A stretch of 35,096 nucleotides of DNA from Marinibacterium profundimaris (GTDB lineage: Bacteria > Pseudomonadota > Alphaproteobacteria > Rhodobacterales > Rhodobacteraceae), in contig NZ_AQQR01000031.1 of NCBI RefSeq assembly GCF_002210095.1, positions 1 to 35,096 of the forward strand, written 5' to 3'. The translations under genes and the position numbers were made by a program. The notes under the pieces are model-generated. The model had not been told where the DNA came from. It searched no databases and saw only the letters and a list, made by a program, of their open reading frames with translations. Shown one piece after another: positions 3,387 to 29,168 of this stretch (position 1 is its first letter; every line of letters begins with the position of its first letter).

Positions 3387-3890
3387 TCAGGAGACAGGGG
3401 CCGCGTAGATCTCGTTGCGGCGCAGGAGCGCCCAAGCGATCCGGGCAGTCTTGTTGGCGAGCGCGACCGCAACGACTTTCGGTCGCTTGCGTGCTTTAAG
3501 CCCAAGCATCCAAGCCTTGCCGGCATCGCCCTGCCTTGCAAAGCGAAGCACCGCAGTCGCGCCGGAAACGAGCAGTCGCCGGATATATCCATCACCCTGC
3601 TTGCTGATCCCGGTCTGTCGATCCTTGCCACTGCTTGAGTTCGCCCGTGGCGTCAGGCCTAGCCAGGCCGCGAACTGTCGTGCCGAGCGGAACAGGCTCG
3701 GATCCGGAACATTTGCAGCAATTGCGCTGGCGGTGATCGGTCCGATACCGGGAATGGTCGCCAGTCGCCGGCTCGTCTCGTGCGTCCGGTGCCACTCGAG
3801 GATCCGTTTCTCCAGGGCCTCAGCCTGATCGGCAATCGCCTCCGCTTGGCAGATCAACGCATGGATGGCAGCCGCAGCATGGTCAGGCAA
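3387..3890 (-). pseudogene. IS110-family transposase, C-terminal half (5' end removed at the ISL3 junction)
   Basis: About 167 residues of the C-terminal Transposase_20 (IS116/IS110/IS902) domain are present, including the helix-hairpin-helix-like segment LATIPGIGPITASAIAA and the family end VALANKTARIAWALL. The N-terminal RuvC-like DEDD catalytic domain is absent because the frame runs directly into the left end of the ISL3 element at 3892. The missing half is not found on the other side of ISL3 (after 5619), so a deletion or rearrangement followed the insertion. The fragment cannot transpose by itself. Confidence 0.85.
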
Positions 3891-3891
3891 C

Positions 3892-3935
3892 TGTCGCGTT
3901 GCCCTTAAATCGGTTCTGCCTCACTTTGTGTGGCG
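3892..3935. repeat. ISL3 left terminal inverted repeat
   Basis: Imperfect partner of the repeat at 5576-5619. Most positions match over 44 bases. The outermost eight bases are TGTCGCGT on both ends. Confidence 0.85.
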
Positions 3936-3973
3936 CAACTATCCTGAAACTGGAAAATTCAGGAGGTATAGTT

Positions 3974-6709: not shown

Positions 6710-8479
6710 TCAGTCGCTCCGCGTCAGGCCGGCGACCATGTTGGGGTTGTAGCCCGGCCGGACCCGCGCGTCGATCACCACGCTCTTGCCCTCGCGCACC
6801 ATCTCCAGGCCTTTCTTCACCGCCTCGACAAGCTCGCCGGCGGTCTCCACCGGCCCGATCCCCTCGCAGCCCTGCGCCCGGGCGACACCGGCAATGTCGA
6901 TATCCGGGTCGCCGATCCGCTGGCCGATCCACTTGTTCTCCACCGGGCGGTTGCGGGCCACCGCGACGCGCTCCTGGTGGACCTCGTCATTGTAGAACGA
7001 GCGGTTGTTCGACACCACCGCGAGGAACGGCGTGCCGTAATGCGCCGCCGTCCAGAAGGCCGAGGCCGCCATCATGAAGTCCCCGTCGCCCAGCACCGCG
7101 ACCGGCATCCGCCCGCTGTCCTTCAGCGCCAGCGCCGCGCCGATCAGCATCCCCGGACCCGAGCCGATCCCGGCACCGCCGTCCGAGCCCAGGAAATCCA
7201 GCGGGTGGCGGAAGTGCCAGGCCTCCCCGGCCCAGCCCAGCGGCAGGCGCACGATGCTGGCGCAGACCCCGTCCAGCCCCTCGCCGAGCGCCCCGGCCAG
7301 CGTCATGATGTCGAGCGGCGTCTCCGGCGCGGGCGCCTCCAGCGCCGGCTTGACCGGCAGGGCCTCCGGCGCCGCGCCCGCACCCACCTCCAGCGCATCC
7401 GCGATGGCATGCATCGCCCGGTCCGGCGCGCAGGCCAGGTGCAGGTCGAGCGCCGGCAGGGCCTGGTGTTCCATGCCCCAGCCGTTGTGCAACTGGTAAT
7501 CCTGCGAGGCCTGGATGACCTTCGCCGTCACCTCGCCCGCCAGCTTCAGCGTCCCGGCAAGGTCCAGCCAGTCGAGGCTCAGGATCACGTCCGCCTCGCG
7601 CAGCACCTCGCCCGCCGCATCGTCGATGAAGAAGGCCGGCTTGCCGCGATGCTGCGGATGGTCCGTCGGGAAGGACGCCCCGATCCGGATATCCGTCAGG
7701 ACCCTCGCGCCCAGCGCCTCCACCAGCGCCACCCGCCGCGCCCAGTCCGCCGGGTCGCGCGATACCCGCCCCGCCAGGACCACGGGGGCCTTCGCCCCCT
7801 TCAGCAGCTCTGCCGCTCGTGCCACCCCTTCGGCGGCAGGCTCGGCCGGCAGCGGCGGCTGGTAGCGCGAGAAATCCGGCAGCGCCGGCGCCGCCTCGTG
7901 CCGCTTCTCCTGGATCGACACGTCGAAATTGACATAAGTGGGCCCCATCGGCTCGCTCCGCGCGATCACATCCGCGCGCAGCATCGACTCAAGCGCCGCC
8001 TCCATCGAGGCAGGCTGGTCGTCCCACTTCACATAATGGCGGATCATCGAGGCCTGGTCCCGGCAGGTGTGCAGCCAGTCGATCCACGGCCGCCGCATCG
8101 CCGCATCCACCGGCCCCGTCGCCCCGTAGATCAGCACCGGCACACGGTCGCACCAGGCGTTGAAGATCGCCATCGTGCCATGCATCAGGCCCACGTTGCT
8201 GTGCAGGATCACCGCAAGCGGCTCCCCCGTCACCTTCGCATAACCATGCGCAATCGCCACCGCATGCTCCTCGTGCAGGCACAAAAGCATCTGCGGATCC
8301 GCGTTCCCAAGGTGATTGACAAGACTGTCATGCAACCCCCGGAAACTCGACCCGGGGTTCAGCGCAACATACTTAACACCCAAGCCACGAAGCATATCCG
8401 CAAATACATCACTACCCCATACACCAGTACCCGCCGAAGGCACAGGCGTCTCAACGCGTGAAGGTTTTTGATCAGTCAT
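6710..8479 (-). CDS. Thiamine-diphosphate-dependent 2-oxoacid decarboxylase-like enzyme (benzoylformate decarboxylase type)
   Basis: 589 residues from ATG 8479; an upstream ATG at 8509 is less likely. It has the three-domain ThDP fold. The N-terminal pyrimidine domain has NPGSSFRG (about 41-48), the cofactor-activating Glu70 in LHEEHAVAIAHGYA and His93 in ILHSN. The C-terminal cofactor domain has GDGDFMM followed by VSNN. The NPGS serine and the LHS histidine match the positions of catalytic residues Ser26 and His70 known in benzoylformate decarboxylase. A role in decarboxylating a 2-oxoacid to an aldehyde therefore fits better than acetolactate synthesis. The aldehyde dehydrogenase gene upstream and hydroxyacid dehydrogenase downstream support this. 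Exact substrate unknown. Confidence 0.82.
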   Translation of the reverse strand: MTDQKPSRVETPVPSAGTGVWGSDVFADMLRGLGVKYVALNPGSSFRGLHDSLVNHLGNADPQMLLCLHEEHAVAIAHGYAKVTGEPLAVILHSNVGLMHGTMAIFNAWCDRVPVLIYGATGPVDAAMRRPWIDWLHTCRDQASMIRHYVKWDDQPASMEAALESMLRADVIARSEPMGPTYVNFDVSIQEKRHEAAPALPDFSRYQPPLPAEPAAEGVARAAELLKGAKAPVVLAGRVSRDPADWARRVALVEALGARVLTDIRIGASFPTDHPQHRGKPAFFIDDAAGEVLREADVILSLDWLDLAGTLKLAGEVTAKVIQASQDYQLHNGWGMEHQALPALDLHLACAPDRAMHAIADALEVGAGAAPEALPVKPALEAPAPETPLDIMTLAGALGEGLDGVCASIVRLPLGWAGEAWHFRHPLDFLGSDGGAGIGSGPGMLIGAALALKDSGRMPVAVLGDGDFMMAASAFWTAAHYGTPFLAVVSNNRSFYNDEVHQERVAVARNRPVENKWIGQRIGDPDIDIAGVARAQGCEGIGPVETAGELVEAVKKGLEMVREGKSVVIDARVRPGYNPNMVAGLTRSD

Positions 8480-8642
8480 GTTTCCATCCAACTTTCTGTT
8501 TCTTTTCATTCAGCCGCACCTGCACACCGGCGGCGCCGCCGTTTTCTTTCTTGATCGCCGCCCGGATGATCGGCGTTAAGGGAAGATCGGGGCAGGTGAT
8601 TGCCGGCCTTTCAGCCCGCGTCGCCTCCCCCCGGCCAGCCGC
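8480..8642 (-). other. Intergenic stretch with an open minus frame, possible gene remnant
   Basis: After the aldehyde dehydrogenase TAA the same minus frame stays open for about 54 codons and ends with a TGA that overlaps the ATG at 8479. Its last part (about LNEKKQKVGWKHD) reads like a natural C-terminus, but no convincing start codon with a ribosome site is seen. It may be the 3' end of a gene removed by rearrangement, or chance. A palindrome CGGCGGCGCCGCCG lies at about 8529-8542. Confidence 0.3.
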
Positions 8643-10121
8643 TTATTGCCCGGCGAGGTTGATGTGAACGTTCTTCTCGTGGGTGAAGGAAATCAGTTCA
8701 CCGATGCCTTCCTCGCGTCCGATACCGGATTGCTTGACCCCGCCGAAAGGCGCCCCGAGGAAATGGCGACCGACCTCGTTGACCCAGACGAACCCTGCCT
8801 CGACACTCGCCGCCGTTCGGTGCGCGGTGACAAGGTCGCGGGTCCATATCGCGCAGGTCAGGCCAAGTTCGAGCGCATTGACCTCGCTCAGCATCTCGTC
8901 TTCGTCCGACCACTTGCGAACGGCGAGCACCGGGCCAAAGATCTCTTCCCGCGCAATCCGCATTTCCGGAGTCACGTCGGCAAAGATCGTCGGCGCGATG
9001 AAATAGCCATCGGCCAAGGCGCCATCGGTCACGGCATGCCCGCCCGTAACGGCCTGTGCGCCTTCGCTCTTGGCGGAGTCGATGAAGCTCATCACGCGGT
9101 CGAACTGCGCCTGGCTGACGATGGCCCCCATGGTGGTTTCCGGATCGGTCGGCACGCCGGGTTGATACCGCGCGACGGCCTCGGCCAGATGGGAGATCAC
9201 CTCATCGTGAATATCCTGATGCAGGAAAGCCCGGCTTGTCGAGCCGCAGGACTGTCCGCACCAGCCGAAGTTCATCCCGGCGACAATCGCATCTGCAATC
9301 TTTTTCGGGTCGCTGTCGGGATAGGCGATCAGGGCGTTCTTGCCACCGAGTTCCAGCAGGACGGGCTTGACCGTGTCGCTGGCACTGCGCATCACCGCGC
9401 GCCCGGCGGGAACCGACCCGATCAGCGTCACCTTGGCCACGTCGGGATGCTCGGCCAGCCCGGCACCGGCTTCGACCCCGCCGGGCAGAACGCTGAACGT
9501 GCCTTTCGGCATCAGGCCATCGACGAGTTCGGCAAGACGCAGGGCCGAAAGGGGCGCCTGCACCGGGGGTTTGATGATAACGGCATTGCCCGCCGCCAGC
9601 GGCGCGGCCATCTTGCCGCCGCAGAACATGAAAGGATGGTTGAAGGCGAGAATCCGGGCAACGACGCCGAGCGGCTGGCGCAATGTCATGTTGACGCGGT
9701 CCGGCCCCATCGGGATCGTGTCACCCTTCATTTCGGTCACGAGACCCGCGAAAAATTCCATCTGGGCTGCGGCAATCGCGGCATCACCGCGCATTTCCGT
9801 GTAGGGATTGCCGCAGTTCGCGGCATCCATCATCGCCAGTTCATCGCCATGTTTGCGCAACAGCGCCGCGATTTCCTTGAGGATGCGGGCCCGTTCCAGC
9901 GGCGCGACATCGCGCCATTCCTCGAAACCCTTCCCCGCCGCGGCAACCGCGGCGTCCACGTCGGCGCGGCCCGCCGTGGCAACCGTTCCGATCGGCTGCC
10001 CGGTGCCCGGATTCAGGGTTTCTTCGTAAAGTCCTTCGATGGGTGGAACCCATGCCCCTCCGTAATACAGGTCTGCTTTTTTCGAAAGAGTCAGGTTCGC
10101 GTCCAGTTTCAAGATGTCCAT
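8643..10121 (-). CDS. NAD(P)-dependent aldehyde dehydrogenase
   Basis: 492 residues from ATG 10121, chosen for the strong GGGGAGG seven to eight bases upstream. All hallmarks of the superfamily are present: the nucleotide-binding lysine in NAVIIKPPVQAP, the general base Glu in LELGGKNALIAY, the catalytic Cys in GQSCGSTSR, and EEIFGPVLAV near the C-terminus. It oxidises an aldehyde to the acid in the cytoplasm. It is preceded by a promoter with the shared TTAG-N4-CTAA element, so it belongs to the putative phthalate regulon. It may oxidise the aromatic aldehyde made by the ThDP enzyme, or aldehydes from the alcohol part of hydrolysed esters. Both are inference. GC and codon use differ from the two genes downstream. 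Confidence 0.93.
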   Translation of the reverse strand: MDILKLDANLTLSKKADLYYGGAWVPPIEGLYEETLNPGTGQPIGTVATAGRADVDAAVAAAGKGFEEWRDVAPLERARILKEIAALLRKHGDELAMMDAANCGNPYTEMRGDAAIAAAQMEFFAGLVTEMKGDTIPMGPDRVNMTLRQPLGVVARILAFNHPFMFCGGKMAAPLAAGNAVIIKPPVQAPLSALRLAELVDGLMPKGTFSVLPGGVEAGAGLAEHPDVAKVTLIGSVPAGRAVMRSASDTVKPVLLELGGKNALIAYPDSDPKKIADAIVAGMNFGWCGQSCGSTSRAFLHQDIHDEVISHLAEAVARYQPGVPTDPETTMGAIVSQAQFDRVMSFIDSAKSEGAQAVTGGHAVTDGALADGYFIAPTIFADVTPEMRIAREEIFGPVLAVRKWSDEDEMLSEVNALELGLTCAIWTRDLVTAHRTAASVEAGFVWVNEVGRHFLGAPFGGVKQSGIGREEGIGELISFTHEKNVHINLAGQ

Positions 10122-10148
10122 CAGATGTTTCCTCCCCACGTTGACACC

Positions 10149-15430: not shown

Positions 15431-15813
15431 GCCAAAAATTCGATCAGGGCATGAAGACCCGGCGCGAGGTTCTGGGCGATGCCCACGTGGACCGCGCCGA
15501 GGCGGCAAAAACCGAATTCGACCTGCCCTTTCAATCGCTCATCACCGAGAGCGCCTGGGGCACGGTATGGTCCTCGGATAAGATTTCGCGCCGGGAACGG
15601 TCGATGCTGACCATTGCGCTTCTGGCGGCGACGGGAAACTTCGAAGAAATCCCGATGCACATCCGCGCCACGCTGCGCACGGGTGCGTCGAAAGACGACA
15701 TCGCGGAGGCCCTGCAGCATGTGGCGATATATGCGGGGGTACCGAAGGCGAACCACGCCCTGAAACTCGCCAAACAGACCTTTGCGGAAATGGAGGAACG
15801 TGAAAATGACTGA
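15427..15813 (+). CDS. pcaC: 4-carboxymuconolactone decarboxylase
   Basis: 128 residues from ATG 15427. It belongs to the CMD/AhpD-like family, with SRRERSMLTIALLAA and the conserved HIRATLRTGASKDDIAEAL block. It removes CO2 from gamma-carboxymuconolactone to give the enol-lactone used by PcaD. It is a separate gene here, not fused to pcaD as in actinobacterial pcaL. It overlaps pcaH by eight bases. Confidence 0.94.
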   Translation: MSQKFDQGMKTRREVLGDAHVDRAEAAKTEFDLPFQSLITESAWGTVWSSDKISRRERSMLTIALLAATGNFEEIPMHIRATLRTGASKDDIAEALQHVAIYAGVPKANHALKLAKQTFAEMEEREND

Positions 15814-16549
15814 CCGATTGAACGTGGATCAGGGACCGCTGATCCCCCGAAACCGCGCGATCCATCCCGACCCCTACAATCCGGGGTACAAGACCAGCGT
15901 TGCACGCTCGCCGAACCTGCCGCTTCTGTCGATGGAAAGCACCCCTTCGGAAGAGACCGGCCCGACCTTCGGGCATGGGAAGCTCGGCGCGCTCGACAAC
16001 AACCTGATCCTGAACTGGACCAAGGGCAAGGCCCCAGCCGTGGGGGAGCGCATCCTGATGCACGGGCGGGTTCTGGACGAGATGGGCCGCCCCGTCCCCA
16101 ATACGCTGATCGAGATCTGGCAGGCCAACGCGGGCGGTCGTTACCGTCACAAGAAGGATACCTATTTCGCACCGCTCGATCCGAATTTCGGCGGCTGCGG
16201 GCGGACCATCACCGACGAGAACGGGTATTACGAATTCCTGACCGTGCGCCCCGGCGCTTATCCCTGGCCCAACCGCGGCAATGACTGGCGGCCCATGCAT
16301 ATCCATGTGTCCGTCTATGGCCACAGCTTCGGTCAGCGCCTGATCACCCAGATGTATTTCGAGGGTGACCCGCTGATCAACCATTGCCCGATCGCCGCGA
16401 CGATCAAGGAGCGCAGCCAGCTCGACCGCCTGGTCGCGCCACTCGATTTCTCGAAGTCGCGCCCGCTCGATTTCCTTGCCTATAAATTCGACATCGTTCT
16501 GCGCGGGCGCCGCCAGACCATGTTCGAGAACAAGCTGGAGGGTATGTAA
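15806..16549 (+). CDS. pcaH: Protocatechuate 3,4-dioxygenase beta subunit
   Basis: 247 residues from ATG 15806 (GGAGG eight bases upstream). The four ligands of the non-heme Fe(III) site are visible: Tyr113 in GGRYRHKKD, Tyr152 in PGAYPWPN, and His165/His167 in MHIHVSVYG. With PcaG it performs intradiol cleavage of protocatechuate to beta-carboxy-cis,cis-muconate. This is the ring-opening step of the window. Confidence 0.96.
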   Translation: MTDRLNVDQGPLIPRNRAIHPDPYNPGYKTSVARSPNLPLLSMESTPSEETGPTFGHGKLGALDNNLILNWTKGKAPAVGERILMHGRVLDEMGRPVPNTLIEIWQANAGGRYRHKKDTYFAPLDPNFGGCGRTITDENGYYEFLTVRPGAYPWPNRGNDWRPMHIHVSVYGHSFGQRLITQMYFEGDPLINHCPIAATIKERSQLDRLVAPLDFSKSRPLDFLAYKFDIVLRGRRQTMFENKLEGM

Positions 16550-16551
16550 TC

Positions 16552-17157
16552 ATGGTCCAGAAACTCGACACTCTGCAAGAAAGCCCGTCGCAAACAGCGG
16601 GTCCTTATGTCCACATCGGATTGATGCCAACCTACGCCGGGAATGCCGGGTATTACGACGAAGAGATCGGCACCACCCCCTTCATCGACGAAAGCAAGGC
16701 ACAAGGCGAGATCATCGAGATCGTTGGCTCCGTGTACGATGGCACCGGCTGGGCGATGCGCGATGCCCTGATCGAAAGCTGGCAATGCGACGCAAGCGGC
16801 ATCTTCCCGGGGGCCGAGGGCGCCGATCCGGCCGTTACCGGCCATTGCCGCTTTGCCGCCGATGCGGAAACCGGTGAATTCACGCTGCGCACCGTGAAGC
16901 CCGGCCCCTACAAGGGCCGTGGCGGGGTAGACAGCGCGCCGCATATCTCGCTTTGGGTGGTGTCCCGCGGAATCAACATCGGTCTCAATACCCGGATCTA
17001 TTTCGAGGATGAAGACAATGAAAACGATCCGCTTCTGAACCGGGTCGAACAGCGCCCGCGCGTGGACACGCTTATCGCCAAGAAAACCGGCGAGGGGAAA
17101 TATCGCTTCGATATCCGCCTTCAGGGCGAGGGCGAAACGGTTTTCCTCGATATTTGA
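16552..17157 (+). CDS. pcaG: Protocatechuate 3,4-dioxygenase alpha subunit
   Basis: 201 residues, starting two bases after the pcaH stop. It has the family start SPSQTAGPYVHIGLMPT and the intradiol dioxygenase core (GTGWAMRDALIESWQ, FTLRTVKPGPYKG, PHISLWVVSRGINI). The alpha subunit lacks the iron ligands, as expected, and completes the active site of PcaH. Followed by a hairpin with a T run before pcaB. Confidence 0.95.
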   Translation: MVQKLDTLQESPSQTAGPYVHIGLMPTYAGNAGYYDEEIGTTPFIDESKAQGEIIEIVGSVYDGTGWAMRDALIESWQCDASGIFPGAEGADPAVTGHCRFAADAETGEFTLRTVKPGPYKGRGGVDSAPHISLWVVSRGINIGLNTRIYFEDEDNENDPLLNRVEQRPRVDTLIAKKTGEGKYRFDIRLQGEGETVFLDI

Positions 17158-19426: not shown

Positions 19427-20665
19427 TCAGCCCTGCTTGCGGGCTTCAAGCTTCCACTCGGACATTACCGGATCGAGGTTGAACAGCTTTTGCGCGTTCC
19501 CACCGAGAATGTTCCGTTTTGCCGTTTCATCAAGGAACGGAATGTCGTGGATCGTGCTGGGCAGGTCCATATCCCAGTGCGGATAGTCGGACGAGTACAG
19601 CAATTGCGACTCCGCGTTCATCATCTTGAACGTGACTTCCAGGGCTTCCTTGTTGTCCACCAGTTCGATCGGCTGAGAAGAATAGAACATCTCGCGCATG
19701 TAATCGCTCGGCTTCTTCTTGAGAAGCGGCGCGTCCGAGGTGCGCATCATGTATTCATTGTCCAAACGCTGCATCAGGAACGGAACCCAGGCAAGGCCGC
19801 TTTCGATCCACATGGTGTTCAGCTTCGGGAACCGCTCGGGCATACCGTTCAGAACCCAGTTCGTCATGTGGATGATGTTACAGAAGCTGAACCCGAGGGC
19901 ATGAACCGAAATGAACTTGTTCAGCTGCGCCAGGGACGTATCTGCCCAGTGATAGGCCGCGTGGAAACCAAGCGGCATACCGTGTTCTTCCAGCTTGGCA
20001 TAGATGCGCATGTTCACACTGTCATGCACCGGTCGCTTGAGGTAGCCCGTCGACAGGAAGCCGACGACGCCTTTTTTCTCGGCGAACTCGTCAATCATCT
20101 TTTCCGCTTCATGCGGTTCGTTCATCGGAAGATAGACCATCGACACGATGCGCTTGTCTTCTTCCAGGATACGTTCGCACAGCCAGCGGTTATAAGCCCG
20201 CGCCATCGCCACCTCGACCTCGACTTGCGGATGGGTTGCAAGCAGCAGCATCGGGGTCGGGAAAAGGCAGGCCATGTCGACCCCCATCGCGTCCATCCAG
20301 CGCCGGGTCAGCGTGATGTCGCGATGCGGTTTCTCGGGGACCACTTCCTTGTTACGACCGGCATAGCGCGTCACGCGCCCGGCCATGTCCTGAGAGCCGA
20401 TTGCCTGCGGGATCAGGCCGGCACGCCCCACGTTCCCCGCCGACAGACCGAGATGCCGCATGACCGGGTCATCCATGTACTGCAGGATTTCGGGCAGGGC
20501 CTCGGTTTCATAGTGGTGGCTGTCCACGTCGCAAATGAAGAAATCCTTGTAGTTCCGGTCTTCTGCCTGTTTGCGCGCGTTTTTCAGAAGTTTGGTGGTA
20601 TTGAACTCCTTGATCGCCGGATCATTATCCGTGCTGAAGTTCATCGTATTCCCAGTAAGAGACAT
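19427..20665 (-). CDS. Amidohydrolase-superfamily metalloenzyme (ACMSD-like), possibly a Rieske-ferredoxin-dependent oxygenase
   Basis: 412 residues from ATG 20665 (AAGGGAG nine bases upstream). TIM-barrel amidohydrolase_2 type. The strand-1 metal motif is replaced by ICDVDSHHYE (Asp46, Asp48, His50, His51). Other candidate ligands are His235/His239 in GFHAAYHWAD, His266, Glu288 and Asp360 in LLYSSDYPHWD. Most relatives are non-oxidative decarboxylases or hydrolases. However, this gene is the third in an operon with a free Rieske ferredoxin and a 99-residue protein. That partner set recalls amidohydrolase-fold binuclear monooxygenases such as isobutyrate hydroxylase AibH1H2, which receive electrons through a Rieske ferredoxin. 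The oxidative role is inference; the superfamily assignment is firm. Confidence 0.78.
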   Translation of the reverse strand: MSLTGNTMNFSTDNDPAIKEFNTTKLLKNARKQAEDRNYKDFFICDVDSHHYETEALPEILQYMDDPVMRHLGLSAGNVGRAGLIPQAIGSQDMAGRVTRYAGRNKEVVPEKPHRDITLTRRWMDAMGVDMACLFPTPMLLLATHPQVEVEVAMARAYNRWLCERILEEDKRIVSMVYLPMNEPHEAEKMIDEFAEKKGVVGFLSTGYLKRPVHDSVNMRIYAKLEEHGMPLGFHAAYHWADTSLAQLNKFISVHALGFSFCNIIHMTNWVLNGMPERFPKLNTMWIESGLAWVPFLMQRLDNEYMMRTSDAPLLKKKPSDYMREMFYSSQPIELVDNKEALEVTFKMMNAESQLLYSSDYPHWDMDLPSTIHDIPFLDETAKRNILGGNAQKLFNLDPVMSEWKLEARKQG

Positions 20666-20686
20666 ATTATCTCGCTCCCTTGATCG

Positions 20687-20986
20687 TTATTGTTTCAGCG
20701 TCTGCCACATACCGAGTTCGAATACCGCCACATCGGCAGCATCGAGAATCCCGGTTGCGGCAACTGCAACATCCGTCGCTGAAACGTTGTTGTTGTCTGG
20801 AAAGGCAGGGAACTCCTTGTCGCTTTCCCGATACTTGGCAAACGCGGTCACAACCTCGGCGAACACCGCCTGGAATTGTGCCGGGTTCAACCCGCTGGTT
20901 TCCGGCTCGCGCAGGGCTTGCAAAACGGCGTTAACCGATGCGTCCAACCCGGTGGCTTCAGCAGTCATTTTCTCAAATTTCGACAT
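20687..20986 (-). CDS. Small orphan protein between Rieske ferredoxin and amidohydrolase genes
   Basis: 99 residues from ATG 20986, set by GGAGAGG three bases upstream; a second ATG at 20968 is possible. It overlaps the Rieske gene by 14 bases, so translation is coupled. It is predicted mostly helical, acidic, without signal peptide or membrane segment. Recognisable blocks are LNPAQFQAVFAEVVTAF and ATDVAVAATGILDAADVAVF. I do not recognise a family. Its fixed place between an electron carrier and a metalloenzyme suggests a coupling or auxiliary subunit, which is inference. Confidence 0.8.
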   Translation of the reverse strand: MSKFEKMTAEATGLDASVNAVLQALREPETSGLNPAQFQAVFAEVVTAFAKYRESDKEFPAFPDNNNVSATDVAVAATGILDAADVAVFELGMWQTLKQ

Positions 20987-21338
20987 AGACCTCTCCATCC
21001 CGTTCGGTCACCTTGTATCGCTTGAGGCGAATTTTCGGATCGCCCACGGCTTCTCCGGTTTCCATTTTGAATTCCCAGCCGTGCCAGGGGCACACGAAGT
21101 GCATCTCGCTTTCGTCGAAGTTCTGTTGGAGCGCGCGCTGCTGGTCGTCGAATTCGACACAAACCCGGGGCATCCTCAGGCCTTCGCAAACTGGTCCGCC
21201 CTGGTGAGGGCATACGTTCTTGTATGCGACGACATCCCCGTTGTGACGTATAATGCCGATCTCAACTCCGTCGACCTCGCAGATTTTCACGGTCGTATCG
21301 CTGAGGTCGGACGAAGCACATAATAGTTTTTCCGGCAT
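20973..21338 (-). CDS. Rieske-type [2Fe-2S] ferredoxin
   Basis: 121 residues. The Rieske motifs are complete: CPHQGGPV (Cys43, His45) and CPWHGWEF (Cys83, His86), separated by a longer than usual loop (about 38 residues, with CEGLRMPRVCVEFDDQQ). No catalytic domain, so it is a free electron carrier. The phthalate dioxygenase reductase in this window already has its own plant-type ferredoxin domain, so this protein is more likely the partner of the amidohydrolase encoded in the same operon. No dedicated reductase is next to it; the phthalate reductase or a host enzyme may supply electrons. It is divergent from the MarR gene at 21461. Confidence 0.92.
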   Translation of the reverse strand: MPEKLLCASSDLSDTTVKICEVDGVEIGIIRHNGDVVAYKNVCPHQGGPVCEGLRMPRVCVEFDDQQRALQQNFDESEMHFVCPWHGWEFKMETGEAVGDPKIRLKRYKVTERDGEVYVEI

Positions 21339-21371: not shown

Positions 21372-21402
21372 TACCAATTGGTAAGATTGTCTTACTATAA
21401 GA
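21372..21402. promoter_or_regulatory. Operator array in the Rieske-operon / marR divergent region
   Basis: Three alternating half-sites TAAGA (21382-21386), TCTTA (21390-21394) and TAAGA (21398-21402) are separated by TTG and CTA. The first two extend to the perfect inverted repeat GTAAGA-TTG-TCTTAC. A 12-base palindrome TACCAATTGGTA (21372-21383) overlaps the left edge. The position between the divergent genes fits a MarR-type binding site controlling both. Confidence 0.6.
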
Positions 21403-21460
21403 TATGCTCTAGAATTGTCAATAAAATAAGAAATCTAATCTAAGGCATTACGATATCGGC

Positions 21461-21895
21461 TTGAATCACTCCCCTTCCCGCAAACGCGGTCTCGGAGCAT
21501 CGCTTCGTCTGTCCCACCATCTCTATGGCAAGCTGTTGCAGAAACAGCTGATCGATTCTGATCTGAGCATGGCGCAGTACATCCACCTCAGAAGCCTGCG
21601 GGAGGAAGGCGCGCTCAGCCAATCCGAGCTTTCAGCGATTCTCGGTATTGAAAAGGCTTCTTCCACGCGCGTTCTGGACGAGCTTGAGCAGCGGCAGCTG
21701 ATCCTGCGTGAACGTAACCGCGAAGACAGGCGCGTGGTCGTTGTCAGCCTCTCCGATCAAGGCCGGAAAAAGATTGACCAGGCCATGAAAGCGGCGCGCA
21801 CTGCGGCTGATCGTGCGTCAAGGGGCTTCGAAGAAGATGAGCTTTTGCAGCTTTTTGCCGCGATGGACAAACTGATCGGGAATCTCTCCTCCTGA
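21461..21895 (+). CDS. MarR-family transcriptional regulator
   Basis: 144 residues from a TTG at 21461; no ATG start with a clear ribosome site is seen upstream, so the start is uncertain. The winged helix-turn-helix is clear: GALSQSELSAILGIEKASSTRVLDELE, then the wing with RNREDRRVVVVSLSDQGRKK. Dimerisation helices lie at both ends. It is divergent from the Rieske/amidohydrolase operon, with an array of inverted half-sites between them. It probably represses that operon and itself until a phenolic or aromatic-acid ligand binds. It is convergent with the transporter gene, 15 bases away. Confidence 0.88.
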   Translation: MNHSPSRKRGLGASLRLSHHLYGKLLQKQLIDSDLSMAQYIHLRSLREEGALSQSELSAILGIEKASSTRVLDELEQRQLILRERNREDRRVVVVSLSDQGRKKIDQAMKAARTAADRASRGFEEDELLQLFAAMDKLIGNLSS

Positions 21896-22870: not shown

Positions 22871-23314
22871 CTACCTGGCATCAGCAACAAGCTGCTCAAG
22901 GAAGCGGTCAGAGGACATGACCTCGCGCATCGGCAGCTTTTCTTGCGTCTCCATGAGTTCGGTCGAGAAGGTCAGGCCTTGCCCATCCCAGAACCACCAA
23001 TAGATGATTTCGCCTTTCTTTCCCCGAATAGGCATTCTGAATGTCGGGAATTTCCGTTCCCCACGCGGGATTTCGACATTCTCGACACGGGAATGCTTCA
23101 ACCCGAGTTTCTTCAGAACGCCCGATAGCGGAACCATCGCCATGGGGGACTCTTCGGTTGCCAGGACAGTGACATTCTCGGGTCGGCTTTTGTACGGACC
23201 CGAGAGAAATTTGACCACCGGCGGATAGCTCGGGTGGGTATGCGTCAACTGAACATAGGCCAGCCCCTTGGGCGTTTCGACCTCGACAATATCGCCGGGC
23301 TGATACTCTTCCAT
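22871..23314 (-). CDS. Conserved-looking hypothetical protein in the phthalate operon
   Basis: 147 residues from ATG 23314. The start follows AGGAG presented in a hairpin loop. The protein starts MEEYQPGDIVEVETPKGLAY, a small beta-rich fold reminiscent of Imm26-like or RNA-binding SH3-like barrels, and has a tryptophan-rich IIYWWFWDGQG segment. No signal peptide, membrane helix or cofactor motif. Longer upstream frames overlap pht5 and are unlikely. I do not recognise a function. Its place between the decarboxylase and transporter genes ties it to phthalate use. Confidence 0.75.
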   Translation of the reverse strand: MEEYQPGDIVEVETPKGLAYVQLTHTHPSYPPVVKFLSGPYKSRPENVTVLATEESPMAMVPLSGVLKKLGLKHSRVENVEIPRGERKFPTFRMPIRGKKGEIIYWWFWDGQGLTFSTELMETQEKLPMREVMSSDRFLEQLVADAR

Positions 23315-23332
23315 TTTAACACTCCTGTTAAA
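23315..23332 (-). promoter_or_regulatory. Hairpin presenting the ribosome-binding site in its loop
   Basis: TTTAAC (23332-23327 on the minus strand) and GTTAAA (23320-23315) can form a 6-bp stem whose six-base loop is AGGAGT. The stem also contains the pht5 stop codon and abuts the ATG at 23314. It may tune translation of the hypothetical gene or couple it to pht5. Confidence 0.45.
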
Positions 23333-24320
23333 GGCTGTAGGCTTCCAAAGTCGATGGGTGGAATAATTCCTCGATTCCGACACGGCGCGGCGAAAGGCCC
23401 TGGCTCGCGTGGTAATCAAGGAACTTGTCCAGCACATGGGCGTTCGCGCCAACCCCGTAACTCCACGGGTCATCCCCCATCAGGGTGTGAACCCGGTTGA
23501 GGGTATCCTCGACAAACGGCATCGTGACCTTGGTGGCCGACGTGTCTGACAGCGCCTCTTCGGCCAGCCGCTTTGACTGAGTAAACGCCTTGAGCAACGC
23601 AGCGGGCAGGAAAGGATATTCCTCGGCAAGGCTTCGGCGGACACCCAGAACATGCATGATCGGGAAAATCTTGGTCCGCTCGAAATAATCCTCCGCGGCA
23701 GAGATGCTGTCGGAAAACAGCCGCCCGACATGCGGGTGCCCCTCGGCGAAGCAACGCGGCCAGCGCGGACCGACAAAGCCGTCGATCTCACCGGCTGCCA
23801 GCATCCCGTTCAGGGTGCTGCCTTCGGGGGCCTCTTCCATCGTGATGTCGTCCGGCAACTGAACCTTGATCTTCTCCGGCCGGCCCGGTGTATCCATACC
23901 GCCCCGCACCCAGACGATATCCGAAGATTTCACGCCGTATTCCTCTTCCAGAATACCGCGCACCCAGACATTGGCGGAAAGCTGATACTCGGCGATACCG
24001 ATGCGCTTGCCCTTCAGATCCTCGGGCTTCTCAATGCCCTTGTCCGTGCGGATATAAACCGACGTGTGCCGGAACGCACGGCTCAGGAAAACCGGGATGG
24101 CCACATAATGCGGATCACCGCGGGCAACCGAGATCGAATAGGACGACAGCGAAAGCTCGCTGATATCAAAGGCTTGATGCCGGAAAGCCCGGAAGAACAT
24201 TTCTTCCGGCGACAACAGCATCGGAATGGGATCGACCCCGTCGATCTGTACCCGTCCATCCACGATTGCCCGTGTCCGGTCGTAGTTTCCCATTGCAAGT
24301 GATAGATTTAGATTGCTCAT
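23328..24320 (-). CDS. pht5: 4,5-dihydroxyphthalate decarboxylase
   Basis: 330 residues. The start ATG overlaps the pht4 stop by four bases (ATGA). It has the periplasmic-binding-protein-like fold typical of this unusual decarboxylase (starts with YDRTRAIVDGRVQIDGVDPIPML; blocks FDISELSLSSYSISVARGD, GKRIGIAEYQLSANVWVRGIL and GEIDGFVGPRWP). There is no signal peptide, so it is cytoplasmic and not a transporter receptor. It converts 4,5-dihydroxyphthalate to protocatechuate, which feeds the pca genes. A related substrate cannot be excluded. Confidence 0.9.
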   Translation of the reverse strand: MSNLNLSLAMGNYDRTRAIVDGRVQIDGVDPIPMLLSPEEMFFRAFRHQAFDISELSLSSYSISVARGDPHYVAIPVFLSRAFRHTSVYIRTDKGIEKPEDLKGKRIGIAEYQLSANVWVRGILEEEYGVKSSDIVWVRGGMDTPGRPEKIKVQLPDDITMEEAPEGSTLNGMLAAGEIDGFVGPRWPRCFAEGHPHVGRLFSDSISAAEDYFERTKIFPIMHVLGVRRSLAEEYPFLPAALLKAFTQSKRLAEEALSDTSATKVTMPFVEDTLNRVHTLMGDDPWSYGVGANAHVLDKFLDYHASQGLSPRRVGIEELFHPSTLEAYSL

Positions 24321-25504
24321 TGCGTCCCCTCCCTGTGTTTTGTTCTGTACTGCCGCTGTAGCTCGACCGGCTGGCCGGTGTCAGCGGACTGCAAGATCGC
24401 ATGGCAGACCTCAAGGCTCGCAAGGCCCCACTCCCCTGTCTGGACAGGGGGCTCATCCTCACGAACTGCGGCCACCAGTGCATCGATAACGGTCCTGCGC
24501 GGCGCAGGACCGAATTTCGCTTCGATAAAGCTGCGTTCGGTATCCCCGAACACCTCGATACCGTCCGGCGTGAGTTTCAGGTCGGCACGATCGCAAAGTG
24601 CGATGACCGGCCCGAAATGTTCATTGTGTTTGGCGTCGACCGTCTTGCCGCCGCCGAAAGTCCGCGTCGTCTTGAGCCGGGCTTCCTCCTCGGGGTCGAG
24701 GTCCATCAGGGCGCGGCGCGCCCCGCCATAGGCACCGGGCTGTTTCCGCTGCCCCAGCTCTCCGACGTCGTTCATCCAGATATCGCTGTCGAAATGGGCG
24801 TACCCCGAATAGGTCAGGTTGGCGATACAGCCCGTCTCAAAGTTCATGAGCGCGGTAAACGCACCCTCTGTCGGGCGTTTCGGGTCCCATGCGCCGGTCA
24901 TGGCATAGATATTCTTGGCCATGCCCCCCGCCAACCGGCGAACGACATCGATCTGGTGAATGGCCTGGCTGAAAAGAACGCCTCCGCCCTCTTCGGTGCG
25001 AAGCTCTTCGGGGCGCCGGGGGCGATACAGGAAATCCGTGTAGTTCAGCGCCTGGATCATCCGCAACTGACCGAACTCACCGCTTTCGATCAACTGCGCG
25101 GCAAGGTCCACGGGCGGATCGAAGCTGTGGCTCGGGCCAACGATCATATGCACCCCGGCCTCGCGGACAGCCGCAACCATCTTGTCGGCATCTTCCATCG
25201 AGATCGCCAGGGGCTTTTCGACAAGAATATGCTTACCGGCACGCGCCGCTGCCAGAACATGATCGACATGCATCTGGTGCGGGGTCGCGATATAGATCGC
25301 CTCGACCGAGGGATCGGCGCAGAGGTCTTCGATAGCCGCATACCCCGTGCCGCCGTATTCCTTTTCAAAGGCGTTACGGCTTTCTTCCCTGGGGGCGGCG
25401 GCGGCGGTCAGCTTCACGCGGGAATCGGCGTCGAAAGTCGGCACCATGAGCATGAACGCACGCCCAAGTCCCGCAACGCCGAGGCGAACGGGATCAGAGG
25501 TCAA
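24317..25504 (-). CDS. pht4: Gfo/Idh/MocA dehydrogenase, cis-4,5-dihydrodiol phthalate dehydrogenase
   Basis: 395 residues. I place the start at TTG 25504: it is preceded by GGGGAGG at good spacing, begins MTSDPVRLGVAGLGRAF, and overlaps the reductase stop by 11 bases. The N-terminal Rossmann motif is GVAGLG. Other blocks are ATPHQMHVDHVLAAARAGKHI and VEKPLAIS (conserved EKP lysine), and VLFSQAIHQIDVVRRL with the catalytic-region histidine. In phthalate clusters this family oxidises the dihydrodiol from the dioxygenase to 4,5-dihydroxyphthalate with NAD(P)+. Position between reductase and decarboxylase supports that. Confidence 0.88.
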   Translation of the reverse strand: MTSDPVRLGVAGLGRAFMLMVPTFDADSRVKLTAAAAPREESRNAFEKEYGGTGYAAIEDLCADPSVEAIYIATPHQMHVDHVLAAARAGKHILVEKPLAISMEDADKMVAAVREAGVHMIVGPSHSFDPPVDLAAQLIESGEFGQLRMIQALNYTDFLYRPRRPEELRTEEGGGVLFSQAIHQIDVVRRLAGGMAKNIYAMTGAWDPKRPTEGAFTALMNFETGCIANLTYSGYAHFDSDIWMNDVGELGQRKQPGAYGGARRALMDLDPEEEARLKTTRTFGGGKTVDAKHNEHFGPVIALCDRADLKLTPDGIEVFGDTERSFIEAKFGPAPRRTVIDALVAAVREDEPPVQTGEWGLASLEVCHAILQSADTGQPVELQRQYRTKHREGTQ

Positions 25505-26432
25505 GAACAAGCCTCCCCGACTTGGCCCGCGACACACAGATCATGATGTGATCGCCCTTTTCCTCTTCCATCAGAACCATGTCGCGATGATCGGCCTCAC
25601 CGCTCAACAGGCGGGTCTTGCAGGTGCCGCAAGTGCCGCTCTCACACGAGCTTGACGTGGCATGGCCCGCATCTCGCAGCGCTTCGAGAATCGAGCGATC
25701 CTCCGGAACCGTCACCACCTCACCGCTTTTCTTCAGTTCCACTTCAAAGGCCGTATCGTCTTCGCGCACCACATCGACGGGTTTGAAATCCTCGAAGTGA
25801 ATGCGTCCTTCCGGCCAGTGTCCGGACACGGCCTTGATCTCTTCCATCAAGGGCTTGGGGCCACAGCAAAAGACATGCGTTGCCCGCGGCGTCACCAGAT
25901 CGTCCCAGAAGTCATAAACAGCATTCGGATCACCATTGTCATGGTGGACGATGATACGCCCGTCGAAATCCTTCATCAGCTCATCCAGATAGGCCGACTC
26001 TTCTGCACTGCGGCTCACGTAGATGATCCGCAGCATCTTGCCTTTCTTATCGAGGAACCGCGCCATCGAATAGATCGGCGTGATACCGATGCCACCGGCG
26101 ATCAGCAGGTATTTCTGCACATCGGTCAGCGGGAAATCGTTCTCGGGCACCTCGATTGTAAGTTCGGTCCCGACAGTCGCATCATCATGCATCGACGCGG
26201 ACCCGCCTCGCGATTCCGGCTCACGCTTGATGGCCACGACATATTCCTTGGGGTCCTCGCCGTCATTGACAAGCGAGTAGCGGCGCATCGCGCCCGAAGG
26301 CGTTTCGACAGTGACATGCGCACCGGGATCGAAACTTGGCAGTTTGTCGTCGCCGACCGGCGCCAAAGTGAATTCTACGATACTCGGAGTCAAATCGCGC
26401 CTGTTTTCGACGCGCATTCTGATCTGCTCCAT
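25494..26432 (-). CDS. pht2: Phthalate 4,5-dioxygenase reductase
   Basis: 312 residues. Domain order as in phthalate dioxygenase reductase: FMN-binding barrel with RRYSLVND (50-57), NADH-binding domain with AGGIGITPI (112-120) and CCGP (189-192), and C-terminal plant-type [2Fe-2S] domain with Cys263, Cys268, Cys271 and Cys299. It passes electrons from NADH to the Rieske oxygenase. First gene of a pht2-pht4-pht5-orf-EamA operon with its own TTAG-type promoter. The oxygenase gene is separate, one gene and two control regions upstream. Confidence 0.94.
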   Translation of the reverse strand: MEQIRMRVENRRDLTPSIVEFTLAPVGDDKLPSFDPGAHVTVETPSGAMRRYSLVNDGEDPKEYVVAIKREPESRGGSASMHDDATVGTELTIEVPENDFPLTDVQKYLLIAGGIGITPIYSMARFLDKKGKMLRIIYVSRSAEESAYLDELMKDFDGRIIVHHDNGDPNAVYDFWDDLVTPRATHVFCCGPKPLMEEIKAVSGHWPEGRIHFEDFKPVDVVREDDTAFEVELKKSGEVVTVPEDRSILEALRDAGHATSSSCESGTCGTCKTRLLSGEADHRDMVLMEEEKGDHIMICVSRAKSGRLVLDL

Positions 26433-26553: not shown

Positions 26554-27717
26554 TTAGCCGGGGCCCGCCACCCCTGTTTTCATTGCTGCGATATGCTGCG
26601 CGCCCAGGTCCCGTACCGATTGGCAGCCGACGAAAATCATCGTTCTGCGCAATTCATCCTCCAGAATCGAAAGCGCTTGCGCAACACCCTCGCGGCCATG
26701 CGCCGCCAGGCCGTAAAGTGGTGCCCGGCCAAGCAGAACGCCATGCGCCCCCAAGGCCAGCGCCTTGACGGTATCGCTACCCCGGCGGATTCCGCCGTCC
26801 AGCAGGATTTTCGCGTCCTTGTCCAGTTGCCCGGCGATATCCCCGATCACATCGATAGTCGCCGGCGCACCGTCGAGTTGCCGGCCTCCGTGGTTCGACA
26901 CGATGACACCATCGGCCCCTTCCTGCCGGGCGCGCAGGGCGTCCTCGGCACACATGATTCCCTTGATCAGAAGCGGCCCGTTCCACTGCTTGCGGATGCG
27001 CCGGACATCCTCCCAGGAAAAATGCGGATTGCGCTGAGAGCGGGTGAAATCTGCCAGTTCCTTGTCGCTGGCTCTCTCCCCAAGGAAAGCCACGAGGTTT
27101 TGCAATCGTGGCCTGTTATTGCTGAGCCAGACGGATTTCAGCCATCCGGGGTGCATCAACCCATCAAGAACGATGGGCGCACTCATGGTGATCTCATGCG
27201 CGAACCCGTGCCGCAAATCCCGCTCGCGCTTCCCCCCGACCAGCGAATCGACCGTAATGATCAATGCCGAATAGCCAGCCTCGGAGGCGCGGTCGATCAG
27301 CGCCCGGGAAAAGGCCTCCTTCCCCCATGGGTAAAGCTGGAACCAAAGTGGCCCGCCCGACCGTTGTGCGATCTCTTCCATTGAAGAGTTGGAGGCCGTC
27401 GAAACGGCAAAACCGATGCCTGCATCTTCGGCAGCACCGGCCAGATGCAAATCGCCTTTCGGCCAGTAAATCCCGTTCAAACCCGTCGGGCCGATCATGA
27501 AAGGCGATGCGAACTTCTGGCCGAACAGGTCGATTGAAAGATCAACCGTGCCACCTTTCAGGATTCTGGGCGTGAGCCGGATATCCTCGTAAGCTTGGCG
27601 GTTTCTGCGAAGGGTCACTTCGTCTTCCGCCCCTCCATCAAGAAAATCGAACACGACGCGCGGCAGCCGCCGCCGGGCCCGGCGGCGCAAGTCGTCGATG
27701 TTAACGGTTCGGGTCAT
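26554..27717 (-). CDS. FMN-dependent alpha-hydroxyacid dehydrogenase ((S)-mandelate dehydrogenase / L-lactate dehydrogenase type)
   Basis: 387 residues from ATG 27717 (MTRTVNIDDLRRRARRRLP); a GTG at 27819 in the same frame would add 34 unlike residues. Signature of the family: SNHGGRQLDGAPATID with catalytic His and Arg, WFQLYPWG, IITVDSLVGGKRERDLR, and ILLDGGIRRGSDTVKALALGA. Such enzymes oxidise L-2-hydroxyacids (mandelate, lactate, glycolate) to 2-oxoacids. With the benzoylformate-decarboxylase-type and aldehyde dehydrogenase genes at 6710-10121 it would complete a mandelate-like route, although it lies inside the phthalate genes. Substrate is not determined by sequence. Confidence 0.88.
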   Translation of the reverse strand: MTRTVNIDDLRRRARRRLPRVVFDFLDGGAEDEVTLRRNRQAYEDIRLTPRILKGGTVDLSIDLFGQKFASPFMIGPTGLNGIYWPKGDLHLAGAAEDAGIGFAVSTASNSSMEEIAQRSGGPLWFQLYPWGKEAFSRALIDRASEAGYSALIITVDSLVGGKRERDLRHGFAHEITMSAPIVLDGLMHPGWLKSVWLSNNRPRLQNLVAFLGERASDKELADFTRSQRNPHFSWEDVRRIRKQWNGPLLIKGIMCAEDALRARQEGADGVIVSNHGGRQLDGAPATIDVIGDIAGQLDKDAKILLDGGIRRGSDTVKALALGAHGVLLGRAPLYGLAAHGREGVAQALSILEDELRRTMIFVGCQSVRDLGAQHIAAMKTGVAGPG

Positions 27718-27800
27718 CTTGCTCGTCGGTGTCCTGCGATACGCCTCTGCCCCCGTCAGGGACAGGGCGTTTTCCACAAGCGGCAAACAGCCATCCCCCC

Positions 27801-27819
27801 GTGTCAGGCAGGCTGACAC
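27801..27819. promoter_or_regulatory. Perfect inverted repeat upstream of the hydroxyacid dehydrogenase
   Basis: GTGTCAG (27801-27807) and CTGACAC (27813-27819) form a 7-bp perfect inverted repeat with a five-base centre, about 84 bases before the ATG. It looks like an operator and differs from the TTAG-type element. If the GTG at 27819 were the start, it would be coding instead. Confidence 0.4.
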
Positions 27820-27887: not shown

Positions 27888-29168
27888 TTATTCTGCCGCT
27901 GCGGTTTTACCCGAGGTATCGACGAGGGTGCGCCAATCGGTCTCTTTCGGATAAACACCCTCATGAGAGGCGATCACGCCCTGCGGGATATCGGAATCGG
28001 TGCCGATGGCCCGACCGCCTTCTGCAACCTTCTTGGCCGCATCGGCCATCAGCCGCCGGAACTCGACGATTGCCAGGTCAGAGGCCCCGAGAACGTCAGT
28101 GTGACGCTGAACCCGGCTTCCCATCGAAACCCACATCACGATATCTTCGTTCGGGATGCCATCCACACCAGTGAAGTGACCTTCCTTCATTCTCTCGCGG
28201 TCCTGCAGGAAGTCGTTCTCCAGCGTCCGGACCGGACGCCACTTGTCATCCAGATCTTCCCCCGGCACAGCAAAGGTAAACTTGCGCCATTCCTCGGTCG
28301 AAGGAACGTTCGGACCACCGAAGGCAAGGAAGTGGAAGGCCGTTTCATCATCGTTAATCGGCACGATAACGCTTGCCACCCGGTAATTGTTGTTGGGCGG
28401 AATCAGCGAATAATAAGGCGCGATGAATTCGGTGATGCGCAAATAGTTATGGGTCTGCGCATTCTTGATCGGCTTGCGAATCGCCGCGTAGTGGAAACCG
28501 TAACTCGTGGTTTCGGTCTGCATGCGGGGCGATTTGTCGGTCGACGGACGGTACCACGATTTTTCGTCGGCCGCGGCCCCTTCCACCCGGGCAGGAACCA
28601 TGGTGGAGGAATGGAGCGACGACGAATGCGCGCTGTCGATCTGACCTTCGTGGATCTGTGCCCAGTTGGCAGGCACCCGAATCTTCAGGATCGCAACCGG
28701 CGTATCCTCGGTCGGCGCGAAGGCGGGCGGCTGGAACTCCGGCATGTCTTCTTTTTCACCAAGCCAAGCCCAGACGAATCCGCCCCACTCACGCACCGGG
28801 TAGGACCGGTGCTTGACCTTGTCCATCAGGGGGCTGCCTTCGGGCTCGGACGACATGGCAACGACGTTACCGTCAACGTCCATCTTCCAGCCGTGATAAA
28901 GGCAGCGCAGGCCGCATTCCTCATTCCGGCCATAGACCAGCGATGCCTTACGGTGCGGGCAAAGCTCATCCAGCAAACCCAGACGCCCCTTCGAATCGCG
29001 GAACGCCACGTAACTTTCACCAAGAACCTCAACACGAAGCGGCTTGCCGTCGGGTTCTTCGACTTCTTCCATCAGGCACACGGGTGTCCAGTGCTGACGC
29101 ATCAACTTGGCCATCGGGGCATCCCCGGTCACGCGGGTCAGCAGTTCATTCTCTTCAGGTGTAAGCAT
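27888..29168 (-). CDS. pht3: Phthalate 4,5-dioxygenase oxygenase component (Rieske non-heme iron)
   Basis: 426 residues, start MLTPEENELLTRVTGDAPM as in phthalate 4,5-dioxygenases. The Rieske centre is CPHR (Cys70, His72) and CLYHGW (Cys89, His92). The mononuclear iron site is in NWAQIHEGQIDSAHSSSLH (Asp178, His181, His186; the third ligand is a later Asp). It adds O2 to phthalate to give the 4,5-cis-dihydrodiol, taking electrons from Pht2. Homomeric alpha-only type: no beta subunit gene is present, as known for this subfamily. It is a single-gene transcript with its own promoter and terminator. Related ring-carboxylate substrates remain possible. Confidence 0.92.
   Translation of the reverse strand: MLTPEENELLTRVTGDAPMAKLMRQHWTPVCLMEEVEEPDGKPLRVEVLGESYVAFRDSKGRLGLLDELCPHRKASLVYGRNEECGLRCLYHGWKMDVDGNVVAMSSEPEGSPLMDKVKHRSYPVREWGGFVWAWLGEKEDMPEFQPPAFAPTEDTPVAILKIRVPANWAQIHEGQIDSAHSSSLHSSTMVPARVEGAAADEKSWYRPSTDKSPRMQTETTSYGFHYAAIRKPIKNAQTHNYLRITEFIAPYYSLIPPNNNYRVASVIVPINDDETAFHFLAFGGPNVPSTEEWRKFTFAVPGEDLDDKWRPVRTLENDFLQDRERMKEGHFTGVDGIPNEDIVMWVSMGSRVQRHTDVLGASDLAIVEFRRLMADAAKKVAEGGRAIGTDSDIPQGVIASHEGVYPKETDWRTLVDTSGKTAAAE

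Follow-up and report, generated by a model that had tools for sequence, protein, structure and literature searches.

We analyzed a 35,096-nt stretch of Marinibacterium profundimaris DNA (contig NZ_AQQR01000031.1 of assembly GCF_002210095.1), referred to here as the window, in which three genes form one tight cluster on the minus strand at positions 19427-21338. The first gene (20973..21338, -) encodes a 121-residue Rieske [2Fe-2S] ferredoxin (PF00355, E 3e-16), the presumed electron donor, with the cluster motif C-x-H/C-x2-H read as CPH...CPWH. The second, ORF99 (20687..20986, -), encodes a 99-residue, predicted all-helical protein of an unnamed family and is the putative third component of the system. 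Its mechanically called open reading frame (ORF) comprises 103 residues, and the start giving 99 residues was chosen in agreement with relatives. The third gene (19427..20665, -) encodes a 412-residue PF04909 TIM-barrel amidohydrolase (E 1e-24), here a predicted terminal oxygenase of the amidohydrolase-related dinuclear oxygenase (ARO) type. The ferredoxin and 99-residue protein genes overlap by 14 nt, and 21 nt separate the stop of the latter from the start of the amidohydrolase gene, confirming the coupling of the three genes described in a previous sequence-only reading of this DNA. Strand and spacing fit a single transcription unit for ferredoxin and amidohydrolase, and co-transcription is predicted from this arrangement.

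By sequence, the closest solved relatives of the amidohydrolase were 8sm7 (E 1.6e-34), 8sm6 (SfbO), 8sm9, 6m1w_B (AibH2) and 8sm8 (E 2.6e-22), and a family-profile search of solved structures found only these five at better than 1e-20. AibH1 chains came next in the sequence ranking (E about 5e-19), with the first decarboxylase only at 1.3e-12. The AlphaFold2 single-chain model (predicted local distance difference test score, pLDDT, 85; predicted template-modelling score, pTM, 0.87) retrieved ARO or AibH1H2 chains, both subunits included, at Foldseek ranks 1-20, followed by ACMSD from rank 21. ACMSD and the 5-carboxyvanillate and resorcylate decarboxylases share the PF04909 fold, yet rank behind SfbO, 8sm7-8sm9 and the AibH1H2 subunits; these decarboxylases carry one metal or none according to the available text of PMC10811679. 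Thus, in a similarity ranking of sequence and fold, as distinct from a phylogeny that includes decarboxylases, the enzyme groups with the AROs SfbO and AibH2. A decarboxylase was the nearest solved relative in neither ranking; a position within characterized decarboxylases would have counted against the sequence-only reading.

The predicted dinuclear-site residues D48, H50, H235, E288, D360 and H363 align with the six AibH2 metal ligands (D25, H27, H211, E265, D337 and H340; PMC7782822, available text), placing three histidines and three carboxylates at the AibH2 ligand positions, and did not vary in any of the 84 aligned relatives. H363 is the counterpart of AibH2 H340, a position with no equivalent in the ligand list for the zinc subunit AibH1 in the available text of PMC7782822. 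The sequence-only reading had regarded the motif DVDSHH (residues 46-51) as an unusual metal site. The equivalent stretch is DCDVHH in SfbO and DVDVHN in 8sm7, and D-x-H is found in both AibH2 and SfbO; the motif is therefore ordinary for AROs. W364, which matches SfbO W341, was kept in 82 of 84 relatives. The sulfate-binding R232 and R235 of SfbO align with A256 and F259 (F259 invariant in 84/84), so the natural substrate should differ from that of SfbO.

Known systems resemble the cluster in part. The proteins of 8sm6-8sm9 were selected by Liu et al. 2024 as candidate AROs because of a small Rieske gene nearby, and SfbO and three other candidates were expressed as single proteins (PMC10811679, available text). 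SfbO and 8SM7-8SM9 share with the window protein the PF04909 TIM barrel, the DxDxH...H...E...DxxH ligands, a nearby small Rieske ferredoxin gene and a single amidohydrolase (PMC10811679, available text), at 24-25% identity in fold alignments. AibH1H2-AibG-AibF likewise has all six AibH2 ligands and a Rieske ferredoxin partner, but differs in having two amidohydrolase subunits, a dedicated reductase (AibF) and, in the available text of PMC7782822, no named small helical protein; according to the same text it is a 2-aminoisobutyrate monooxygenase, rather than the isobutyrate hydroxylase of the sequence-only reading. A single amidohydrolase homologue was found in the window's genome at E<=1e-80, and five other PF04909 matches lie on other contigs. 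None of these other PF04909 proteins matched the oxygenase family profile, and these searches revealed no second amidohydrolase subunit. The single homologue is consistent with the earlier suggestion that the 99-residue protein stands in for such a subunit. We consider this very unlikely, since the protein differs from AibH1 in size and predicted fold class, SfbO-type AROs have been studied as single proteins (PMC10811679, available text), and loci with several (two to five) amidohydrolase genes retain the 99-residue protein gene.

The 99-residue protein itself had no match in Pfam or NCBIfam, and 41 family members searched against both databases gave none that was convincing (best 6e-4, to DUF7854, in 3 members). 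No PDB relative was found by sequence. The single-chain model was all-helical and of moderate confidence (pLDDT 79, pTM 0.62), and Foldseek returned no fold match for it (best E 3.5). W94 was invariant in 47/47 family rows, and T71, L81, F89, E90 and L91 were kept in at least 90%; the last three and W94 lie in a conserved helix with the pattern FELxxW. The window protein has zero Cys and zero His, and no alignment column exceeded 17/47 Cys or 8/47 His, and it is therefore no Fe-S carrier and lacks a His/Cys metal site. Homologues at loci L147, L149, L153-L155, L159, L160, L164 and L165 lie in longer frames of about 190-240 residues from stop to stop; in most of these the profile matched two separated stretches, possibly reflecting an insertion or just an upstream open frame.

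Conservation of the partners was examined at 78 related loci. These derive from the top 80 among 309 confirmed relatives, a sample in which distant relatives are under-represented. A ferredoxin gene lay just upstream of the amidohydrolase gene at 72 of the 78, two of the six remaining loci (L053 and L071) beginning near a contig end; a 99-residue protein homologue was present at 49/78. The gene arrangement is thus unlikely to be fortuitous. Searching 385 alphaproteobacterial genomes with the 99-residue protein profile alone gave 24 matches; they fall in 17 genomes, one of which is that of the window. Ferredoxin was encoded within the 1.5-kb flanks of all 24 and the oxygenase within those of 23, while the remaining match had an oxygenase on its own contig at a distance of about 6 kb. 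The oxygenase profile (E <= 1e-80), searched separately, matched precisely these 17 of the 385 genomes. Across a sample of the whole phylum the two profiles again coincided, both matching the same 3/398 genomes, all of the same class and including the window's; the class and phylum samples share this genome and some close relatives. With a single window protein as query, 2/196 genomes of the order matched, both with all three genes. The partner conservation on which the sequence-only reading depended was observed in most relatives. Gene order varied: ferredoxin-99-residue protein-oxygenase was commonest, with oxygenase-ferredoxin-99-residue protein at L112-L115, ferredoxin-oxygenase-99-residue protein at L096 and L110, and oxygenase-99-residue protein-ferredoxin followed by a flavin adenine dinucleotide (FAD) oxidoreductase in Aminobacter. 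This variation favors a functional unit over mere inheritance as a block. Two loci of uncultured Rhodospirillales carry five (L044:7992-14213) and four (L045:8013-13008) tandem amidohydrolase paralogues behind one ferredoxin gene and one 99-residue protein gene. A contig labelled as the Gammaproteobacteria metagenome-assembled genome OFTM102 (L009) holds the window genes at 100% identity, probably through a labelling or binning error or because it is the same organism.

We read the three genes as encoding a multicomponent monooxygenase of ferredoxin, dinuclear oxygenase and 99-residue component, a predicted activity to which we assign a probability of roughly 0.75. Electrons would flow from the ferredoxin to the amidohydrolase-fold protein. 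The Fe/Fe or Mn/Fe site of the latter, formed by the six residues above, would activate O2 and hydroxylate a C-H bond. The helical protein would be an effector or a structural subunit, belonging either to the oxygenase alone or to its pair with the ferredoxin. The nearest relatives, the six ligands and the ferredoxin at 72/78 loci support the sequence-only proposal of an AibH2-kind oxygenase fed by the Rieske protein. Several observations weigh against the monooxygenase reading. The operon contains no dedicated reductase gene. PtmU3 (6omp), also an ARO and, as predicted for the window protein, a PF04909 dinuclear hydroxylase (PMC10811679, available text), matched at E 3.6e-11, farther by sequence than 5-carboxyvanillate decarboxylase, and was absent among the 50 Foldseek matches listed for the amidohydrolase model. 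The model of the 99-residue protein reached only moderate confidence. No adjacent 99-residue protein gene was found at 29/78 loci, though the oxygenases there retain all six ligands; ferredoxin was present at 25 of these, and neither partner lay within 2.5 kb at the other 4 (L028, L055, L057 and L083). Lastly, the 99-residue protein gene was not found at two haloarchaeal plasmid ARO-ferredoxin pairs examined.

Most of the 29 loci without the gene fall in a single clade made up of Beijerinckiaceae and other Hyphomicrobiales; the rest come from Acidobacteria and scattered others. They represent 27 genomes, and the idea that such genomes have no 99-residue protein gene at all was rejected: 26 of the 27 carry one elsewhere, and this copy could act in trans or be part of another system. 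Among 49 such distant matches listed, 20 were fetched; all 20 stretches contained an oxygenase gene and 18 a ferredoxin gene, the other two lying at contig ends. On a tree from a quick search, with the L044 and L045 rows labelled by locus, the presence or absence of the gene required 6 changes versus 24 in shuffles. The 99-residue protein thus marks one branch of AROs, not all of them, and some oxygenase copies within the branch are without it.

For the role of the 99-residue protein we favor an effector-like or structural third component, a view reached by elimination and by analogy, without homology, to MmoB-type effectors. It is a small protein lacking a Cys/His cofactor site and encoded with a hydroxylase and a ferredoxin, as expected of an effector, and it is absent beside 29/78 relatives. 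The effectors MmoB and T4moD are alpha/beta proteins, and neither was matched when the 99-residue protein was searched against the PDB by sequence and by Foldseek; no direct pairwise comparison was made. The hydroxylases of soluble methane monooxygenase (sMMO) and toluene 4-monooxygenase (T4MO) are four-helix-bundle diiron proteins, unlike the TIM barrel of the window. These systems also combine a hydroxylase with a small regulatory protein, and T4MO includes a Rieske ferredoxin (PMC7782822, available text), a likeness of analogy only. The main competing explanation is an assembly factor, for example in metal loading or TIM-barrel folding, that stands outside the working oxygenase. The small size, predicted helical fold and tight linkage of the protein would suit such a role, and oxygenase paralogues lacking an adjacent copy could be served in trans in the 26 of 27 genomes that hold one. 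The absence of conserved Cys or His from the family speaks against it, while a carboxylate metal site or a pure chaperone would still be compatible, and on balance we regard an assembly factor as unlikely. That the family is the first dedicated effector of TIM-barrel dinuclear oxygenases, arisen independently of those of the methane and toluene monooxygenases, is a tentative proposal to which we give somewhat less than an even chance.

The cluster lies among genes for aromatic acid catabolism, called by a crude longest-ORF method and with some cluster names being our own reading. A 4,5-dihydroxyphthalate decarboxylase (23328..24320, -; PDB 9jp7, E 2e-129) is followed by a Gfo/Idh/MocA dehydrogenase (24317..25537, -; family match), probably phthalate dihydrodiol dehydrogenase judging by position, and by a PDR/VanB-type reductase with its own 2Fe-2S domain (25494..26432, -; domain matches), a probable phthalate dioxygenase reductase and a possible source of electrons for the ferredoxin. 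Beyond these lie a flavin mononucleotide (FMN) alpha-hydroxy-acid oxidase/dehydrogenase (26554..27819, -; L-lactate oxidase 7f22, E 1.8e-104; (S)-mandelate dehydrogenase 6bfg, E 5e-97) and a phthalate dioxygenase-like Rieske oxygenase (27888..29168, -; 7fjl, E 1.6e-176; putative phthalate 4,5-dioxygenase 7fhr, E 1.3e-59). Elsewhere in the window are a thiamine-diphosphate (TPP) enzyme (6710..8509, -) with benzoylformate decarboxylase 4q9d (E 1.2e-27) as its best PDB match and with PRK08327 (1.8e-65) and then benzoylformate decarboxylase (4.9e-39) as NCBIfam matches, both below cut-off, an aldehyde dehydrogenase (8643..10139, -; family match), protocatechuate dioxygenase subunits read from ORFs (15782-17157), and, by family matches, a 3-oxoadipyl-CoA thiolase and a PcaR-type regulator. 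The nearest group comprises 12 loci, including one that matches the window at 100% identity; genes for the dioxygenase, the decarboxylase and the reductase occurred at 12/12 and for the hydroxy-acid oxidase at 11/12. Given this setting and the many aromatic-acid decarboxylases in PF04909, the amidohydrolase could be a conventional phthalate-pathway enzyme, either a non-oxidative decarboxylase or a hydrolase, with the ferredoxin serving the neighboring dioxygenase. We consider this improbable, because AROs are the nearest relatives of the amidohydrolase, the phthalate cluster already has a decarboxylase and a reductase with a 2Fe-2S domain, and the ferredoxin-amidohydrolase pairing persists where the stretch examined holds no phthalate dioxygenase homologue (0/37 three-gene loci outside phthalate clusters and 0/29 loci without the 99-residue protein gene). 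Between the 4,5-dihydroxyphthalate decarboxylase gene and an EamA transporter gene, positions 22871-23473 (-) encode a conserved protein kept in phthalate-type relatives; it has 147 residues in L087, where it is annotated as hypothetical, and no Pfam or NCBIfam match.

Under the monooxygenase reading, this neighborhood offers candidate substrates. The oxidase, TPP enzyme and aldehyde dehydrogenase resemble a mandelate route, and we therefore suggest that the enzyme may hydroxylate its substrate next to a carboxylate; homophthalate is the leading candidate. The hydroxylated acid would be taken to phthalate by the hydroxy-acid oxidase, then the benzoylformate-decarboxylase-like enzyme and finally the aldehyde dehydrogenase, and neighboring gene products would convert the phthalate to protocatechuate. 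Outside the phthalate group, the Pseudolabrys loci L036 and L039 offer the best example: downstream of the three genes, those for oxidase, aldehyde dehydrogenase and TPP enzyme follow one after another. Among three-gene loci not in phthalate clusters (n = 37), a TPP enzyme gene was present at 7, aldehyde dehydrogenase at 12, hydroxy-acid oxidase at 4 and UbiD at 8; the corresponding counts at the 29 loci without the 99-residue protein gene were 1, 0, 0 and 2. In support of the hint, the window's 6.15-Mb genome encodes 2 such TPP enzymes and 4 such oxidases at E<=1e-20. The hint is weaker than these raw counts imply, since merging close relatives shrinks them. With oxygenases at least 80% identical merged, the three-gene loci formed 13 clusters (TPP 3, aldehyde dehydrogenase 6, oxidase 3, UbiD 6) and the other loci 10 (1, 0, 0 and 1); at 70% there were 7 clusters of each, with counts of 1, 3, 2 and 1 versus 1, 0, 0 and 1.

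In addition to this shrinkage among the three-gene loci, other results count against the mandelate-like route. Lactate enzymes scored best for the hydroxy-acid oxidase, with L-lactate dehydrogenase as top NCBIfam match, below cut-off. Within the stretch fetched, no TPP enzyme gene was present at the 12 phthalate-type loci (0/12), although the window and L087 have one at a greater distance. Oxidases near other three-gene loci were 34-40% identical to that of the window, no closer than its own-genome paralogues (37-38%). We accordingly regard an arylacetate-type acid such as homophthalate, funnelled through phthalate to protocatechuate, as a doubtful though specific candidate. The fuller proposal, in which the 99-residue family is an independently arisen effector and the window version alpha-hydroxylates such acids into phthalate catabolism, is unlikely to hold in both its parts. 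The ester-breakdown product named in the sequence-only reading was neither singled out nor contradicted by the evidence. UbiD neighbors (8/37 loci, 6/13 clusters) suggest that substrates differ between branches. Another aromatic-acid pathway is suggested at L033, L037, L047, L049, L054, L060 and L070 by varying combinations of an additional PF04909 gene with a CoxG-like gene, UbiD/UbiX and genes for a tripartite tricarboxylate transporter.

A MarR-family regulator gene (21461..21895, +; family match) diverges from the operon and probably controls it. An alignment of upstream regions revealed a conserved TTGAC (21417..21421, -), likely the -35 element of the operon promoter, and an inverted repeat GTAAGA-TTG-TCTTAC (21381..21395, + strand reading), a likely MarR operator. 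The window and ten phthalate-type relatives have in common both this TTGAC and a repeat that follows the pattern GTAAGnCAATCTTAC. A similar GTAAG/CTTAC repeat with different spacing was seen in L036 and L039 among six rows from other contexts.

Features associated with mobility were also seen. Near one end of the contig, which the window spans entirely, positions 3390-5587 encode an ISL3-family transposase (family match) and, in our reading, a further transposase-like ORF. Plasmid copies of the cluster occur in Phaeobacter (typed conjugative) and Thioclava (typed non-mobilizable). The Thioclava plasmid (NZ_CP123976.1) carries, at the very start of its record, a PLSDB-predicted BKC-1 beta-lactamase feature at 100% identity (L088:20521-20733).

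The available text of PMC10811679 presents AROs as a new class of C-H hydroxylases with Mn/Fe or Fe/Fe sites, for most of which the natural substrate is unknown. No description of a three-gene set with a 99-residue component was found in the open-access literature; term searches gave no mention of a partner of this type in the main text of PMC10811679, its supplement being outside the scope, nor of this gene set in the available text of the review PMC13040137. The claim of a new oxygenase system consequently holds in part: an ARO with a ferredoxin is already known in kind, and the novelty is the 99-residue third component. Should one branch of AROs possess an additional conserved component, enzymes of that branch would need reconstitution with the 99-residue protein. 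An effector role, if true, would mean that dinuclear oxygenases acquired an effector-type partner twice, through unrelated inventions. The neighborhood, in turn, offers concrete candidate substrates and connects the system with phthalate catabolism in Rhodobacterales and relatives.

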